NCBI GenBank assembly: GCA_903928965.1
Contig: CAIYSZ010000085.1
Span: 1 to 64,000, forward strand
Direction of reading: 5' to 3'
Origin: an uncultured Pseudomonadota bacterium
Lineage (GTDB): Bacteria; Pseudomonadota; Gammaproteobacteria; Methylococcales; Methylomonadaceae
DNA length: 64,000 nt
The translations under genes were made by a program, and so were the position numbers. Below are positions 8,804-36,721 of this stretch, piece by piece. Within the stretch, counting starts at the first letter, position 1; every line of letters starts with the position of its first letter. The notes under the pieces were generated by a model, which did not search any database, had not been told where the DNA came from, and saw only the letters and a list, made by a program, of their open reading frames with translations.

Positions 8804-11116
8804 CTATACATCTTTACCAAAACCCCGCCCAATCTCCCCAAGCCTTTCATGACTTTCCGCCTTCAACTCCGCAATCCGCAACTGCGTATCACTGTTAATC
8901 CCCGCAATCTCCAATTTAGTATCCGCATCCGCTTGAATCTGCACCGTGCGGCTGGCCATTTCCACTTGTAGCCGGTGCAATTCCGCCGTCAGCCGTTCGA
9001 TCTGGTCGGAGGTTTTCTTTTGCAGGTTTAAGTATGCATCACTTTGCGTCACATCGCCACTGTCTGATTTTGCCTTGGCTAAGGTTGCTTGGGCGCTGGC
9101 TTGCAGGTCGGCGATTTTGGCTTTTTGTTCTTCCAAGGCCAGTAGGGCTTGCTGTCTTTGCAACGCCAAAGCTTCCTGCTGCATGGCTTGTTGCTGTTGC
9201 GCGGCCTGGAGTTGTTCCGGTGACGGCGGCTGGTTGGGGTCGGGGTCGCCGGTCATTTTGCGGATTAGTTGCGCGATTTCGTCGTGGTTCGGCAAGTCGC
9301 TATAGTCCATGGCGATGGCGAACAATTTCAAGCCCACTTCCGGCGGCAGTTTTTGCACCAGTTGTTGCAGAGAGTCGAACATCACTTGCCGCAGGGTGCC
9401 GTTGTAATCAGCTTCATCCACCACAAAATCCGCTTTACTGGCGGTAATGTCGTTTAAAAAGTGTACGCTGCCGTCCGGTTGTATTTCCGGTTTATTGATG
9501 TGTATCCAGTTCAAGCCGCCTTTGGCGCCGCTGAGGCGGATGACTTTTTCCTCGCTGTAAAACTGTTCAGTCAGTGACAGTTGTTTTTCCCCGCTGACCT
9601 GTACCGCCAGCCGGTAGTTGTCGAATGGCTCGGTGGTGGACACTGAACCCTGGTTTTGCCGGGCTTGTATGGCCGCTCCGGAAATGGCGTTGGTTTCCCG
9701 GCCCAGGTTTTCGTTGTTGACGCCGCTGACCTTTTGGATAGTCTGCGAGGCCAAGCTCATCATGTTGATCTGGCCGGTGGCGGCGTCGGTGTCGCGGCGC
9801 AGTTCCACGTTCTTGCCGGTTTTCTTGATCATTACGCCGTCCGGGCGGTCGGCTTCGTCGCGAAAATGCTCTAAATCGTCTATCGCGCCTTCGTCGGCGA
9901 TAATCTGGTTGGTGTTGAGCATGAACAAGGCTTTGCTGGCGCGTTTGTTCAAATCCAGTTGTATATCCCTAATCCGGCGCACCACGCCATACGGCAAGCG
10001 GTCGCGTCCGCGCCGGTAGCACCAGAACGGCGTTAACGAAAACTGGTTATGCCGGTACGGCGATTCGCCGACACTGAGTAAATCGCTTTCGGTAAACACC
10101 GCCACATGCACCCGCATCATCAGTTTGTCGATGATCTGGTCGCCTGACTGGTTGACGCTGTTTAACAGGGTTTGGTCATGGGCGCGCACAAAAGACCCTT
10201 TCAACGGGCCGGACGATACGATTTTCACCAAAGCCGGTTGCCGGAACTGGCATTCGATTAGTTTTACGCGGTGACGCTTGGCGTTGTTCAATACGCCGCC
10301 ACTGCCATACGCACCCATGATACCGACACCGTGCCCGCCATCCATCGGATAAATATTTCCGGCGGGTTCCATCCTATTCTCGCCCAAATACCATAAGTCA
10401 TCGTTTTGCATGATGCCGTATTGCTGGTCACGGGCGGCTTTGTGAATTTTAGCGGCCTGGTTGGGAAACAAAGCAATGGCAATATCTTCATCCACCCAGC
10501 GCCAGCGGAAAATATAGCGGGCGTCGGATAAATCCAGTTCGTAGCTGTTGGAGTCCCACAGCACATTCCGCCAGTCCTCGTATTTGGAATACAACACATC
10601 CTGGGTCGGATCGTCGCGCGCGCCGTCATCCACCCAGCCCACGCCCACCTTGATGCAATCGGCGAAGGCGCGGGAACGCTGAAACGGCGCCCGATTCACG
10701 TCGCTGACGTATTTCAGGGTTTTGGTCTTAATGTCGGCAATCGCCACGTCATCCTGTAAACGCGGCAATACTTTCCAATCCACCCGCGAACGCCGCTCGG
10801 TGCCGATCAGCCAGTCCACCATCGGCGCAATCTCGTTATACACCAGCGGCAACTGGCCGCGCCCGCGCAAAATCGTCGCATCGGTTACATCCCATTGCTC
10901 CCCGTCGTAAAACAAGGCATCCATGGCCATTTCCAAGCGGTTGACTGCCTGCCGGTCGCGTTCGTAATAAAACCACTCCAGCAGTTGGCGGAATAGTTTT
11001 TGATATTCCGGCGTGTTCAGCGGGTCGTCGGTCTGTTCACAAAGACTATCAACAAAACCGGCGTCCAGCCACGGATTATCCGGTGACAGGCTATTGTCCT
11101 CAAAAGTGCTAGACAT
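8804..11116 (-). CDS. Portal protein, P22-like
   Basis: This is a 770-residue predicted portal, the dodecameric ring at the head vertex through which DNA is packaged and ejected. The N-terminal half carries features typical of P22-type portals, including an early YYERDRQAVNRLEMAMDALF stretch, WDV and PLVYNEIAPMVDWLIGTERR. The C-terminal 150 residues are a long Gln/Ala-rich coiled coil, comparable with the P22 portal barrel. The ATG at 11116 overlaps the end of the upstream gene by 8 bases; longer in-frame extensions read through that gene and look spurious. Its place after the ejection genes, about 17 kb from terminase and capsid, is unusual. Confidence 0.85.
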   Translation of the reverse strand: MSSTFEDNSLSPDNPWLDAGFVDSLCEQTDDPLNTPEYQKLFRQLLEWFYYERDRQAVNRLEMAMDALFYDGEQWDVTDATILRGRGQLPLVYNEIAPMVDWLIGTERRSRVDWKVLPRLQDDVAIADIKTKTLKYVSDVNRAPFQRSRAFADCIKVGVGWVDDGARDDPTQDVLYSKYEDWRNVLWDSNSYELDLSDARYIFRWRWVDEDIAIALFPNQAAKIHKAARDQQYGIMQNDDLWYLGENRMEPAGNIYPMDGGHGVGIMGAYGSGGVLNNAKRHRVKLIECQFRQPALVKIVSSGPLKGSFVRAHDQTLLNSVNQSGDQIIDKLMMRVHVAVFTESDLLSVGESPYRHNQFSLTPFWCYRRGRDRLPYGVVRRIRDIQLDLNKRASKALFMLNTNQIIADEGAIDDLEHFRDEADRPDGVMIKKTGKNVELRRDTDAATGQINMMSLASQTIQKVSGVNNENLGRETNAISGAAIQARQNQGSVSTTEPFDNYRLAVQVSGEKQLSLTEQFYSEEKVIRLSGAKGGLNWIHINKPEIQPDGSVHFLNDITASKADFVVDEADYNGTLRQVMFDSLQQLVQKLPPEVGLKLFAIAMDYSDLPNHDEIAQLIRKMTGDPDPNQPPSPEQLQAAQQQQAMQQEALALQRQQALLALEEQKAKIADLQASAQATLAKAKSDSGDVTQSDAYLNLQKKTSDQIERLTAELHRLQVEMASRTVQIQADADTKLEIAGINSDTQLRIAELKAESHERLGEIGRGFGKDV

Positions 11117-32209: not shown

Positions 32210-34291
32210 TCAGAAACGGTGATAACGCCATACGCGCTGCCCTCCGACCGTGTCATTCTTTTTCTTCCACTTAAACCGATTCATGATATGGCCGACACGG
32301 GTCAACTCGCTTCTGCCATGCTTGGCAACTTCGATGCCGAGGGCGTTTTCAAGGATTTCTCCTGTGGTTACGATTGTTTTCCCAATCAACCATTGAGCAA
32401 TTTTTTCCTCCCAGGATTCGTCGGAGTCATAACGCAATTCCTGCTCTTCTTGAGCATTAGGAATTTCCCACCACGTAGCGCCGTTTTGGTATAAAAACAG
32501 CGCCTCCGCCCAGAGCTGATCCCGGTCTCGTTTGATGGATTCCAGATTAATTTTATTGCTGGCAATCGGCAAATAGCGCCGGGCTCCTGTTGCATCTCGC
32601 AGATAGGTGTTGTTGTTAGTCGTACCCATGAAAATGTTTTGCCTTTGAAAATCCTGGCTACGCTTGCCGTAGGAAGGCCGATACCTGTCAGAGCGTATGG
32701 TGAGAATCTGCTTGATGTGATCGCTGTCTGCGCGGGTGATGCCAGCCATTTCGCCGAATTCCATGACCCATTTGCCGTTAAGATTTTGAAAAAAATCCTT
32801 GTCGGTGACGCTGGCCTGGGTTTCCGCATGCCATGGCAAGGAAAATAATTCGATAATTGCCGTTGATTTGTATGAACCTTGTTCACCTTCCAGCACCACC
32901 ATGGTGTCTACTTTACACCCAGGCTTCATGACTCTGGCGATAGCTGAAACTAGCAAGGATTGAGATACCGCTCGGACATAATCGCTATCTTCCGCGCCAA
33001 AATAGTCGGTAAAAAGCTGCATAACTCTGGGTTTGTCATCCCAGCTAAGCGCAATCAGATAATCACGCACCGGATGAAATTGATTTTCCTTGGCCACAAC
33101 CTGGATAGCTTCCTCCAAATCCTTAGTTGGCAATTTGTCAGGGATGTATTTTTTTTCCAGTTCGGCCTTGATCGTGTATAGAGCTGAATCGTCTAGGCTA
33201 TTTCCATCAATCTCAATCTGATTGGTGAAATTATTGAACCGCACACGCCCCTTGAAATCCGGTGTGTGCTTTAGGAATAGGATGAGGTTATGCACACGGC
33301 ATAAGACAGTTTGTGTGCCATCGGGCTTATGTTTGACGATCAAGTTGTTGCGCCAACCACTGTCTTGTTGAACTATGGGGGCAAATGCTTGGCGCACAGC
33401 TTCAACACCAGCGGCGACATGGACATCGTTCCAGTCTTTTGAGTCTGGGGCTTCAATAAGTCGGCCATCAACGGCCTTGGCGGCTTTCGCTGAATGCAAA
33501 CGTCCGGTCTTATCGCCGTCAACTGCTATGAGAATTTCCGTCTGGGCATTTTTTCCGCGCGCCATTTGCGCTACTTTTTCTAGGTTATTGGCGGAAAACG
33601 CCACTAGAACCGGCAATCCGGTGCATTGATGTATGGATTGCGCGGTCGCTAGGCCTTCGGCGATGACGATAATCGTAGCTTCCTTCCAATCGCCAATCCC
33701 AAACCAGCCACCACCTGTACTGCCGCCTTTCATAAATAATTTTTTGCCGTTATCCAGAATCAATTGGAGAGAGGCAATATCTCCGGCGGGTGAGTAGATC
33801 GGAACCAATAAACCGGATAGCGGCTTGCCTTTCTTGAACCCGAGTGTTTCCGTGTTCAAGTCAACGGCAAATCGGACGCTCGTAGGTAGATCAATGGCTT
33901 TAGTATTCAGATAAGCGCAAGTTCCGGCTTCACTGGCTGCTTGATAAATGTCGGTAGCTCTTTTAATAGCTTCGGTTTTGGCGTTACGCCGTGCTGTCTC
34001 GGCATCTTTGCGTTTTTGATCAATATCGGCCAGTTCAGACGCACTAAGCTGGCGAGCGTTATTGCTTGTCCAAGTAATTTTGATGTTTTCTCGCCAGCTA
34101 CCAAAAGCGCCCGCGCGGCCACTGGCATCATCAAACCCAACGTACCAACCATCCTTGGAATGTTTTTTATGCGGATCAGTGGCGAAGCGATGAATATTGC
34201 CGTCCAATATTACCGAGTCAGGGGGATGGTAGCCGTAAGCGGCTATTGCGTCGGATAGGCAAGAAAAATTATTGAGCTTAGTGTCGATCAC
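32210..34291 (-). CDS. Primase-helicase with TOPRIM and VapE-type ATPase domains
   Basis: The protein is about 693 residues. A TOPRIM-like primase segment carries VIAEGLATAQS and IAVDGDKTG, and a C-terminal VapE (superfamily 3-like) ATPase carries the Walker A LEGEQGSYKST. It probably drives prophage DNA replication from the adjacent iteron array. The start is taken as the GTG at 34291, with GGAG about ten bases upstream; a TTG at 34327 lacks such a site. No stop lies within the domains. Confidence 0.85.
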   Translation of the reverse strand: MIDTKLNNFSCLSDAIAAYGYHPPDSVILDGNIHRFATDPHKKHSKDGWYVGFDDASGRAGAFGSWRENIKITWTSNNARQLSASELADIDQKRKDAETARRNAKTEAIKRATDIYQAASEAGTCAYLNTKAIDLPTSVRFAVDLNTETLGFKKGKPLSGLLVPIYSPAGDIASLQLILDNGKKLFMKGGSTGGGWFGIGDWKEATIIVIAEGLATAQSIHQCTGLPVLVAFSANNLEKVAQMARGKNAQTEILIAVDGDKTGRLHSAKAAKAVDGRLIEAPDSKDWNDVHVAAGVEAVRQAFAPIVQQDSGWRNNLIVKHKPDGTQTVLCRVHNLILFLKHTPDFKGRVRFNNFTNQIEIDGNSLDDSALYTIKAELEKKYIPDKLPTKDLEEAIQVVAKENQFHPVRDYLIALSWDDKPRVMQLFTDYFGAEDSDYVRAVSQSLLVSAIARVMKPGCKVDTMVVLEGEQGSYKSTAIIELFSLPWHAETQASVTDKDFFQNLNGKWVMEFGEMAGITRADSDHIKQILTIRSDRYRPSYGKRSQDFQRQNIFMGTTNNNTYLRDATGARRYLPIASNKINLESIKRDRDQLWAEALFLYQNGATWWEIPNAQEEQELRYDSDESWEEKIAQWLIGKTIVTTGEILENALGIEVAKHGRSELTRVGHIMNRFKWKKKNDTVGGQRVWRYHRF

Positions 34292-34337
34292 TTGCCGGTT
34301 ACTCCATAAAAACCGTAAAGAGTTCAACTATCAATTT

Positions 34338-34577
34338 TTATCTACCAGCCTTGCCGCACTGAGCTGTGCTGACAGCAGCGCCCCTGGATAGCCATTCATC
34401 TAAGTCTTTCTGGAAGTAAAAAATCCGACCACGCTTAATGAAGCGAGGACCGGTGCCTTTGCACCGCATCATTGCAAGCGTTTTTTCACTGAGGCCTACG
34501 TATTCCGAGGCGTCTTTAGCATTCATGCGACCATCGGGGAAAAGGCGAATTTGTACTGCTGATACTGACAATGTCAT
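34338..34577 (-). CDS. Excisionase-like helix-turn-helix protein
   Basis: The 79-residue protein has a MerR/AlpA-like HTH: MNAKDASEYVGLSEKTLAMM, then the wing RCKGTGPRFIKRGRIFYFQKDLDEWL. Such proteins act as excisionases or as early activators. The ATG at 34577 is preferred because AAAGGA lies just upstream; the longer frame starts in the control region. It is divergent from the regulator and integrase genes. Confidence 0.78.
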   Translation of the reverse strand: MTLSVSAVQIRLFPDGRMNAKDASEYVGLSEKTLAMMRCKGTGPRFIKRGRIFYFQKDLDEWLSRGAAVSTAQCGKAGR

Positions 34578-34641
34578 TAAGTTTTCCTTTTGTATCCATT
34601 TACGGCTCAATCATAATACTAAATTCTTCGTGTGTAAAGTC

Positions 34642-34660: not shown

Positions 34661-34697
34661 AAACAGGAACTTTATAGAACATTTGATGAGGTGATTA

Positions 34698-35324
34698 ATG
34701 AAAAAAAAGGAAACGAGTAGTGAAAGTGGCGGCAAGCTTAATCGTTCTGAAACGGTATCTGTACGTTTGGATCAAAAATTAAGGTATTTAGCGGACTTAG
34801 CCGCAAGAAAGCAACGCAGAACAGTATCAAGCTTTATTGAATGGGCTGTGGAACAGAGCTTAAGAGAAGTAAAGCTTTATATCGGTTCTGGATTTCAAGG
34901 AGATCAAGATGTGTCTGTAGAAGACGAGGCTAACCAACTTTGGGATGTTGATGAATCCGAACGTTTTGTTCGATTAGCGATTAGGTATCCAGAGCTTTTG
35001 ACCCATCAAGAACAGGAAACTTGGAAATTATTGCTAGATAGTACGTTGCTACATCCCGCACGTTCAAGGCGAAATAACGTAGTTCATTGGGATTGGGGAG
35101 TGCTAGAAGACATGGTTTTTCCAAAATTGAGAAAGCATTGGCCTGATTTGACAGCGGCTTATTCGCAAGGCATGCCGACAGCACGTCAATGGGTTGAAAA
35201 AATGGAATCCGAAGTTGCCAGCGGATCGGTATATCCAAAATTGGCAGCTCCTGGGCCTAAAAAAAACGTTCCTCTTCAACCAGTTCAGTCTTTTGACGAA
35301 TTTGATGATGATATTCCGTTCTGA
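34698..35324 (+). CDS. Ribbon-helix-helix regulator with SSB-like C-terminal tip
   Basis: The 208-residue protein has an N-terminal CopG-type RHH (about 14-60: NRSETVSVRLDQKLRYLADL, then RRTVSSFIEWAVEQSL). A Trp-rich helical domain follows, and the protein ends in FDEFDDDIPF. The last six residues, DDDIPF, are the same as the tip of E. coli SSB, the docking point for PriA, RecQ, exonuclease I and other partners. The tip is read directly from 35305-35324 just before the stop. The stop codon is followed at once by the integrase ribosome binding site, so both genes are co-expressed. The RHH part probably regulates the integration operon; the tip suggests it also touches the replication or repair machinery. 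Confidence 0.82.
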   Translation: MKKKETSSESGGKLNRSETVSVRLDQKLRYLADLAARKQRRTVSSFIEWAVEQSLREVKLYIGSGFQGDQDVSVEDEANQLWDVDESERFVRLAIRYPELLTHQEQETWKLLLDSTLLHPARSRRNNVVHWDWGVLEDMVFPKLRKHWPDLTAAYSQGMPTARQWVEKMESEVASGSVYPKLAAPGPKKNVPLQPVQSFDEFDDDIPF

Positions 35325-35335
35325 GGAAAATACAA

Positions 35336-36541
35336 ATGGGATTAAAGTTTTCAACATTAACCAGAACCAATGTCAGGAAGTTAACTTCCGGGCAAAAACT
35401 GCACGAACATGGAATTACTTTCGAACGACTAGCTAACGGAGATGGTCGCTATACCGTCAACGTTATGGTGGATGGTCAGCGCATACATCGAGTCATTGGC
35501 AAAGAGAGTGAAGGCGTTACTCGCGAACAAGCCGAAAACTTTATTGAACAGGCCCGGACAGACGCACGACAGCAGCGATTAAGCTTACCTAAGGGGCGGA
35601 AATTAGCGCTAGGTTTTCGAGAAGCCGCCGATAATTATTTGGAAAAACTGGAACATGAAGGTGGCAAAGATATTCCAAGTAAACGCCAAAGACTTAGTCA
35701 GCATCTGATACCGTTTTTTGGTTCAATGCCGTTGGAAAAAATTACATCATCCGAGATCGAGCGCTATAAGAAAAAACGATTGCAGGATACTTCGCTTCAT
35801 GGGGGTGACAAAATTGGAAAAAATGGCCAGGCTGGCGCAAGAGTTACCCCAGTAACGCCAGGAACAGTGAATCGCGAATTAGCCGTGCTATCCCATCTCC
35901 TTAATAAAGCAGTTGAATGGAAATGGCTGGATTTAAAATCTGCACAAGTCAAGCGTCTAAAAGTTGAAAACAGCCGAATAACGTATTTGACTACGGAACA
36001 GATTTCTCGTTTGATAGATTCGGCCAAGGACGATCAGAATCGGGATATATATCCATTCATCGTAATCGGTTTGGAAACGTCAATGCGAAAAATGGAGATT
36101 CTCAGTATTCGGCTTGAAAATATTGATATTAACCGGCAGGTTATTTTTATACCAAAGGCTAAAGCCGGTGCAAGAGAGCAACCGATAACAAAGCACTTGG
36201 CCGACTTTTTGAAAGCGTATCTTGATGCGGCTGAACCTGAACAAGTTTGGTTATTCCCGTCGCCGTCATCCAAGACAGGGCATACTATCAGTATTGAGAA
36301 ACCGTTTAGGAGGGTAGTTGCCGAGGCAGGGCTTGATGTTAAGCAGGTTCTCAGGCATACGCTAAGGCATACAGCGATTACCCATCTTGTTCAGGCTGGC
36401 GTTGATCTGCCAACCGTTCAGCGAATTAGTGGTCATAAAACATTGCAGATGGTTGTGCGATACAGTCATCAAAATGGCGAGCATATTCGTGACGCCATGG
36501 AAAAGCTAGAACAACGCTATCGAACCACGGAAAACTCTTAG
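35336..36541 (+). CDS. Tyrosine-family phage integrase
   Basis: The 401-residue recombinase has a core-binding domain (about 85-190) and a catalytic domain with R251 (ETSMRKMEI), HxxR at 341-344 (HTLRHT), H367 (SGHKTL) and the nucleophile Y376 (VVRYSH). All key residues are present. It sits 104 bases from the 3' end of tRNA-Lys, which it presumably targets. The ATG has GAGG about eight bases upstream, overlapping the previous gene's end. Confidence 0.93.
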   Translation: MGLKFSTLTRTNVRKLTSGQKLHEHGITFERLANGDGRYTVNVMVDGQRIHRVIGKESEGVTREQAENFIEQARTDARQQRLSLPKGRKLALGFREAADNYLEKLEHEGGKDIPSKRQRLSQHLIPFFGSMPLEKITSSEIERYKKKRLQDTSLHGGDKIGKNGQAGARVTPVTPGTVNRELAVLSHLLNKAVEWKWLDLKSAQVKRLKVENSRITYLTTEQISRLIDSAKDDQNRDIYPFIVIGLETSMRKMEILSIRLENIDINRQVIFIPKAKAGAREQPITKHLADFLKAYLDAAEPEQVWLFPSPSSKTGHTISIEKPFRRVVAEAGLDVKQVLRHTLRHTAITHLVQAGVDLPTVQRISGHKTLQMVVRYSHQNGEHIRDAMEKLEQRYRTTENS

Positions 36542-36645: not shown

Positions 36646-36690
36646 TGGTGGGTCGTGTGCGATTCGAACGCACGACCATCGCATTAAAAG
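36646..36690. other. Probable attachment-site core in the 3' half of tRNA-Lys
   Basis: Integrases of this type recombine within the 3' half of a tRNA gene, and here the integrase lies directly next to that end. The T-arm, variable loop and 3' part of the anticodon arm are expected to recur as a direct repeat at the far end of the prophage, outside this window. The exact limits cannot be seen. Confidence 0.55.
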
Positions 36691-36721
36691 TGCGGTGCTC
36701 TACCGGCTGAGCTAACGACCC
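36646..36721 (-). tRNA. tRNA-Lys (anticodon UUU)
   Basis: The 76-base gene folds as a standard cloverleaf: acceptor GGGTCGT with ACGACCC, TTCGAATC T-loop, anticodon loop CTTTTAA with anticodon at 36688-36686, and an encoded CCA end. The 3' end faces the integrase. The gene remains intact after integration. Confidence 0.96.

Follow-up and report, generated by a model that had tools for sequence, protein, structure and literature searches.

The ribbon-helix-helix (RHH) protein described here, encoded by a prophage, ends in a tail that is probably a working SSB-Ct docking motif, a reading for which the sequences of the protein and its relatives give good support. This short tag, with which bacteria bring in replication and repair enzymes, is kept by the nearest phage relatives while the remaining tail changes, which suggests that the phage may reach those host enzymes by it. 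Bacterial genome maintenance has a central docking point in the SSB tail, which PMC10143822 calls an appealing antimicrobial target. If our reading is true, such proteins would give phages and mobile elements one way to access replication and repair enzymes and would separate the recruitment function of SSB from single-stranded DNA. The RHH protein also makes a direct test case: is the tip alone, held on double-stranded DNA, enough for recruitment?

The gene and its prophage surroundings

The window—the whole stretch of 64,000 nucleotides that was analysed—contains an ORF at 34698-35324 on the plus strand, with an ATG start, a 208-residue product and a stop codon at 35322-35324. GAGG, resembling a ribosome site, precedes the ATG and, because an in-frame TGA lies two codons ahead of it (34692-34694), the ATG at 34698 is the sole ATG start in its frame. 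The C-terminus reads ...PVQSFDEFDDDIPF* (last ten residues FDEFDDDIPF). This ending, at these coordinates, is as a sequence-only reading of the window had given it, and the gene does lie just upstream of the integrase, whose ATG at 35336 comes 11 bases past the RHH stop codon. The features are as follows:

32210..34327, minus strand: Toprim/VapE-like primase-helicase of the prophage (PF05272, E 2e-72; PF13362, E 2.3e-13)
34338..34610, minus strand: HTH_17/excisionase-like gene, divergent from the RHH gene (PF12728, E 1.4e-7; phrog_66, E 1e-7)
34698..35324, plus strand: RHH protein with SSB-type C-terminal tip (ORF, 208 aa, stop codon within span)
34728..34871, plus strand: predicted RHH DNA-binding domain, residues 11-58 (AlphaFold helices; identity 0.72 in the closest group)
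34917..35231, plus strand: second, mostly helical domain, residues 74-178, of no known family (pLDDT 89-98 by block)
35232..35303, plus strand: linker, residues 179-202, disordered from about residue 181 (pLDDT 52-58; identity 0.17)
35304..35321, plus strand: SSB-type tip DDDIPF, residues 203-208 (IPF invariant in six proteins; absent from 100 shuffles)
35336..36541, plus strand: tyrosine integrase, next gene after the RHH gene (PF00589, E 1.1e-30)
36646..36721, minus strand: tRNA-Lys(TTT), possible attachment gene (ARAGORN)

Farther along the minus strand, a Pfam profile search found genes for the small and large terminase subunits, and the remaining ORFs down to about 8.8 kb resemble, by eye, tailed-phage structural genes. 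Given the integrase, tRNA-Lys, excisionase-like, primase-helicase, terminase and structural-type genes, this region is the integration end of a prophage. No att repeat was found: a 260-base stretch across the end of the integrase and tRNA-Lys had no second copy longer than 15 bases in 83.9 kb of the contig. The prophage encodes no PF00436-type SSB, though it has its own primase-helicase, and this fits reliance on host SSB partners. One PF00436 SSB was detected in the prophage's own genome (91.9% complete), on a contig other than that of the window.

Predicted fold

An AlphaFold2 model of the window protein, built on 20 rows, has a mean pLDDT of 85, with confident blocks at residues 21-60 and 71-180 and values of 52-58 over residues 181-208. 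The RHH helices (residues 26-38 and 43-56) lie in blocks of pLDDT 91-98; residues 11-20 stand at 66. DSSP assigns no strand ahead of the first helix in this monomer model; in RHH proteins the strand pairs within the dimer.

Foldseek matches in the PDB included AmrZ, Arc, TacA1 and CopG (probability 0.92-0.99 over 38-47 columns, E-values 1-3). Among the best 50 matches each from the PDB and BFVD, the confident named ones are of RHH type, covering about 40-65 columns at E >0.5. It is the Foldseek probability to solved RHH proteins that places the protein structurally in the RHH superfamily; no curated RHH profile was passed, the matches to Pfam RHH_6 (E 0.026) and to RHH_5 (E 0.033) lying below the cut-off. 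The RHH identity first assigned by eye stands as a prediction from AlphaFold and Foldseek, accompanied by these weak Pfam matches. A sequence search of the PDB with the window protein gave one match, at chance level.

For the second domain, profile searches of the window protein and its relatives gave no family match, and of the best 50 of 74 fold matches in the PDB and the best 50 of 246 in BFVD, none lying beyond the RHH part was confident. Likeness to regulators of the Arc, CopG and AmrZ type lies in the predicted RHH part, residues 11-58, whereas the extra helical domain of about 105 residues and the SSB-type tail set the window protein apart from them. The RHH part also matches the 42-position model of the YlcI/YnfO family (NF041551), to which 11 of 20 family members scanned align at E up to 0.1 (best 1.2e-4); the window protein scores 13.8 bits, under the curated cut-off of 30 bits.

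The tip and the SSB tail

The E. coli SSB-Ct is DDDIPF in PMC8509808, which agrees with the identity of the two tips proposed at the outset. PMC10143822 gives the wild-type octapeptide as DFDDDIPF, with an IPF motif that is required and is the part resolved in crystals, and an upstream Phe as second contact; the EFDDDIPF of the RHH protein differs from it by one D/E exchange and retains both Phe contacts. For RecO, PriA, PriC and chi, peptide binding is explained by the acidic tip alone (PMC7145534). The single SSB detected in the host genome ends FDDFDDDIPF.

The RHH protein resembles SSB (PF00436) in having a disordered linker, here with pLDDT 52-58 from residue 181, followed by an acidic C-terminal stretch with terminal IPF-COOH. 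It differs from SSB in its body: PF00436 is absent and the tip is carried by a predicted double-strand DNA-binding RHH domain. No OB-fold ssDNA-binding domain was found: PF00436 was not among the Pfam matches up to E 0.1, and the model is mostly helical. An NCBIfam SSB model covers just residues 183-208, in an alignment that is insignificant (E 0.04). The PriB-SSBc chimera (PMC8509808) likewise bears the SSB tail on another protein, but is man-made and has an OB-fold body, whereas the window protein is natural and has an RHH body. With the terms used, searches of the open-licence literature listed no report of an SSB tip on an RHH protein or on any other regulator that binds DNA, in keeping with the initial impression that the combination was unfamiliar.

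Degenerate DNA encoding D-D-I-P-F-stop was found at one place in the window but in none of 100 shuffles; IPF-stop as raw DNA is not rare (1 found vs 0.87 expected). Among 718 distinct stop-to-stop ORFs of at least 150 aa from the collected loci, 20 end in [IVL]PF, namely 11 SSBs, eight members of the RHH family and one phage recombination protein. As the loci had been chosen for SSB, the RHH family or its integrase, the useful background is one in the 699 other ORFs. We rejected a chance match on the shuffles, the 718-ORF background, the identity in the closest group and the recurrence in the family.

In six of the seven genomes with both tails read, the residue before IPF/VPF is the same as in the host's strongest SSB match (D/D in G000, G1329 with locus L004, G705 and G1116; E/E in G1214 and G1025), the other pair being T/D in G1330, the genome of L005. 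This comparison takes the strongest SSB match per genome and does not include the SSB tail of G692; second SSBs in G705 and G1214 end DADEPF and LDDEIPF, respectively. That the tip's preceding residue may follow the host SSB is suggestive only, six of seven being too few.

Relatives and conservation of the tip

Scans of genomes, IMG/VR, plasmids and phages yielded 27 distinct usable rows. Left out were L036, which runs off its contig; L090, a 70-residue frame; L031, in which the RHH part is missing and the tip present, and which counts only among the loci scored for integrase; L007, L011, L012, L026 and L041-L044 as short or barely related, all tip-less; and L001, L008, L025, L028, L037, L045, L047, L075, L076, L078, L080-L089 and L091 as repeats. 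L022, also without an RHH part, stays counted.

The family is thinly spread, with matches in 2/201, 5/369, 10/398, 5/289, 1/20, 3/147, 3/250, 1/5 and 7/48 genomes of overlapping sets, which differ in thresholds and queries and include the genome searched around. In INPHARED, tblastn with the window protein or L033 found no relative, L079 matched three records solely through an extra Arc-like N-terminus, and the window integrase had no match at E 1e-40. Plasmids gave distant matches in Aeromonas and Alcaligenes, the two that were read both lacking the tip, and no match to L034.

When the last ten residues are removed before tree building, the window protein groups with L004, L005, L033, L034 and L079 (support 97/92), together with L039, a short row that is tip-less and also lacks most of its helical domain. 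The five members then known grouped at 100/99 in an earlier 26-row tree, with no other row among them. The six full-length proteins of this closest group come from this prophage, two beta-proteobacterial MAGs and three IMG/VR contigs; the others are 51-56% identical to the window protein, and all six end in IPF. Mean pairwise identity among them is 0.25 for the N-terminus, 0.72 for the RHH part, 0.38 for the loop, 0.48 for the helical domain, 0.17 for the linker, 0.63 for the last six residues and 1.0 for IPF. The stretch from helical domain to IPF measures 27 residues in the window protein, 18 in L004, 0 in L005, 23 in L033, 19 in L034 and 27 in L079; thus IPF is kept though its distance is not. 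Acidity varies too, with a single Asp near the tip of L005 and DADIPF in L033.

Across the tip-bearing genes the tip is written with Pro codons CCG, CCC, CCT and CCA, Ile codons ATT and ATC and Phe codons TTC and TTT. Because these codons vary synonymously, it is the peptide rather than the DNA that is under conservation. Nor does the tip merely reflect a ribosome site for the gene that follows, since L033, L034 and L079 carry it with no integrase following; conservation of the DNA as an integrase ribosome site was rejected on both grounds.

The wider family is mixed. Ten of the 27 rows end in [IV]PF—the window protein, L004, L005, L033, L034, L079, L019, L022, L046 and L032—and the tip is absent from the other 17. 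The expectation of the sequence-only reading that the tip would be more conserved than the linker is therefore borne out in the closest group and does not extend beyond it. Homologues ending in unrelated residues, which that reading held would speak against its proposal, occur in the wider family and are absent from the six full-length closest-group members. L032, a remote relative, has the end DDEVPF, and the row nearest to it, L030, is tip-less; L038 ends LDDMDLNVFE, perhaps a decayed tip. Tip state changed at least five times on the 27-row tree, which has several long rows and many open deep branches, and three of the changes are forced by well-supported branches. With both states so distributed among the rows, the tip appears to mark part of the family and to have been gained or lost several times.

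Gene context

An integrase of the same family directly follows the RHH gene in 15 of 26 loci. They divide into 7 of the 11 loci with a tip and 8 of the 15 without one, so tip and integrase are not coupled. Five loci counted as lacking it (L019, L023, L024, L030 and L077) had about 1.4 kb downstream covered, and 19.5 kb around L019 (stretch L048) contained none; in L033 an integrase-like gene lies far off, elsewhere in the locus and on the opposite strand. The suggestion that the tip serves the att site or integrase in particular is not supported as it stood: four tip-bearing loci have no adjacent integrase, and synteny gives an att-site role no support, as tip and integrase linkage do not covary. 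In L033 and L034 the RHH gene is divergent to an AntA antirepressor gene. What the loci have in common seems to be a DNA binder of the phage early region more than a partner of the integrase.

In L022 and L031 the helical domain and tip remain, with no RHH part in any frame of the strand over 600-700 bases upstream. Both look decayed, given a split integrase in the former and an IstB-like frame upstream of the latter. At L022 (1402-1809, G692), where 600 bases upstream hold no RHH part, the integrase that follows is in two frames. In L050 (about 9000-10100, G1116), which contains the same gene as L031, the upstream frame is, by eye, of IS21 type.

In L035 (925-4631) a tip-less RHH gene lies ahead of genes for an Erf annealing protein and a YqaJ exonuclease, with all three on one strand, and a later small ORF ends DDLAF. 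VPDIPF is the end of a phage recombination protein in L040 (6733-7644; phrog_7838 'exonuclease', E 9.3e-50); the RHH protein of that contig is short and tip-less.

Proposed function and alternatives

We think it somewhat more probable than otherwise that the window protein is a phage early-region DNA binder whose SSB-Ct tail recruits host SSB partners to phage DNA. The predicted RHH part would dimerise and bind specific double-stranded sites on phage DNA, leaving free tips to dock in pockets on the SSB partners of the host, for example PriA, PriC, chi, RecO, RecQ or ExoI. Host replication-restart or recombination enzymes would thereby be concentrated on phage DNA even where single-stranded DNA is absent. 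The tip-less majority, the single Asp of L005, an upstream palindrome in the window that is no better than shuffles and the lack of an RHH part in L022 and L031 weigh against recruitment; however, L022 and L031 look decayed, so that the missing RHH part of L022 leaves the odds of the readings unchanged. The basic job of the family would be independent of the tip, because 17 of 27 rows are tip-less and 8 of 15 tip-less loci keep the integrase. A broader proposal, that a family of RHH proteins from phages and mobile elements provides sequence-addressed platforms that seed double-stranded phage DNA with the SSB interactome of the host, with tips that may follow the residue pattern of the host SSB, we advance tentatively, at slightly less than an even chance.

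Recruitment is the most economical reading, and a decoy role comes next. A decoy tip would fill SSB-Ct pockets, compete with SSB and restrain ExoI, RecQ, RecO and others—nucleases and helicases that would harm phage DNA or recombination intermediates—with regulation through DNA binding as a role of its own. The evidence from the tip is identical for both, and a decoy would also suit the decayed loci that retain helical domain and tip alone, the tip-less RHH gene ahead of Erf and YqaJ in L035 and the VPDIPF end of the recombination protein in L040, a contig with a tip-less RHH protein. It would, however, have to be abundant, and 9 of the 11 tip-bearing loci have the tip joined to a conserved RHH part; we regard a decoy as unlikely. 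Rather less likely again is self-regulation, in which the acidic tail, as a DNA mimic, folds back on the RHH domain and adjusts its DNA binding, no partner protein being involved. There is precedent in SSB, whose tail is described as a competitor for its own DNA-binding domain and as a possible DNA mimic (PMC7145534 and PMC8509808), but what the relatives keep is the hydrophobic IPF and not the acidity: L005 has almost none, and L033 has DADIPF. Least of all do we expect a functionless passenger, copied from the host ssb by illegitimate recombination. Over its final 33 coding bases the window gene matches the end of the host ssb at 28 positions, and 17 of 27 rows manage without a tip; the base match fits capture from an ssb gene and also fits shared codon preference, and nearly identical residues can by themselves yield it. 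A passenger is also hard to square with a tip kept at 51-56% identity to the window protein while the linker is scrambled and the codons vary.

Further observations

Near-perfect palindromes lie upstream of the RHH gene in L004, L009, L034 and L038, for example TGTATTGAAAGACAATACA in L004. Across 13 upstream regions, the best palindromes in these four were equalled in 11-14 of 200 shuffles each, that of the window in 178 of 200 and those of the other eight regions in 99-159 of 200. The four are possible operators, of weak significance.

In L048 (9101-10015, G705) a tip-bearing RHH protein stands in one frame behind a DnaG zinc-ribbon (PF01807, E 7.8e-31), possibly an element inserted in dnaG or an effect of assembly. 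L079 (4845-5579) begins with an additional RHH domain of Arc-like type and has the C-terminal end SGFDDMDDEIPF. Genome G647 carries two closely similar copies (L020 and L027) of a tip-less RHH and integrase pair.
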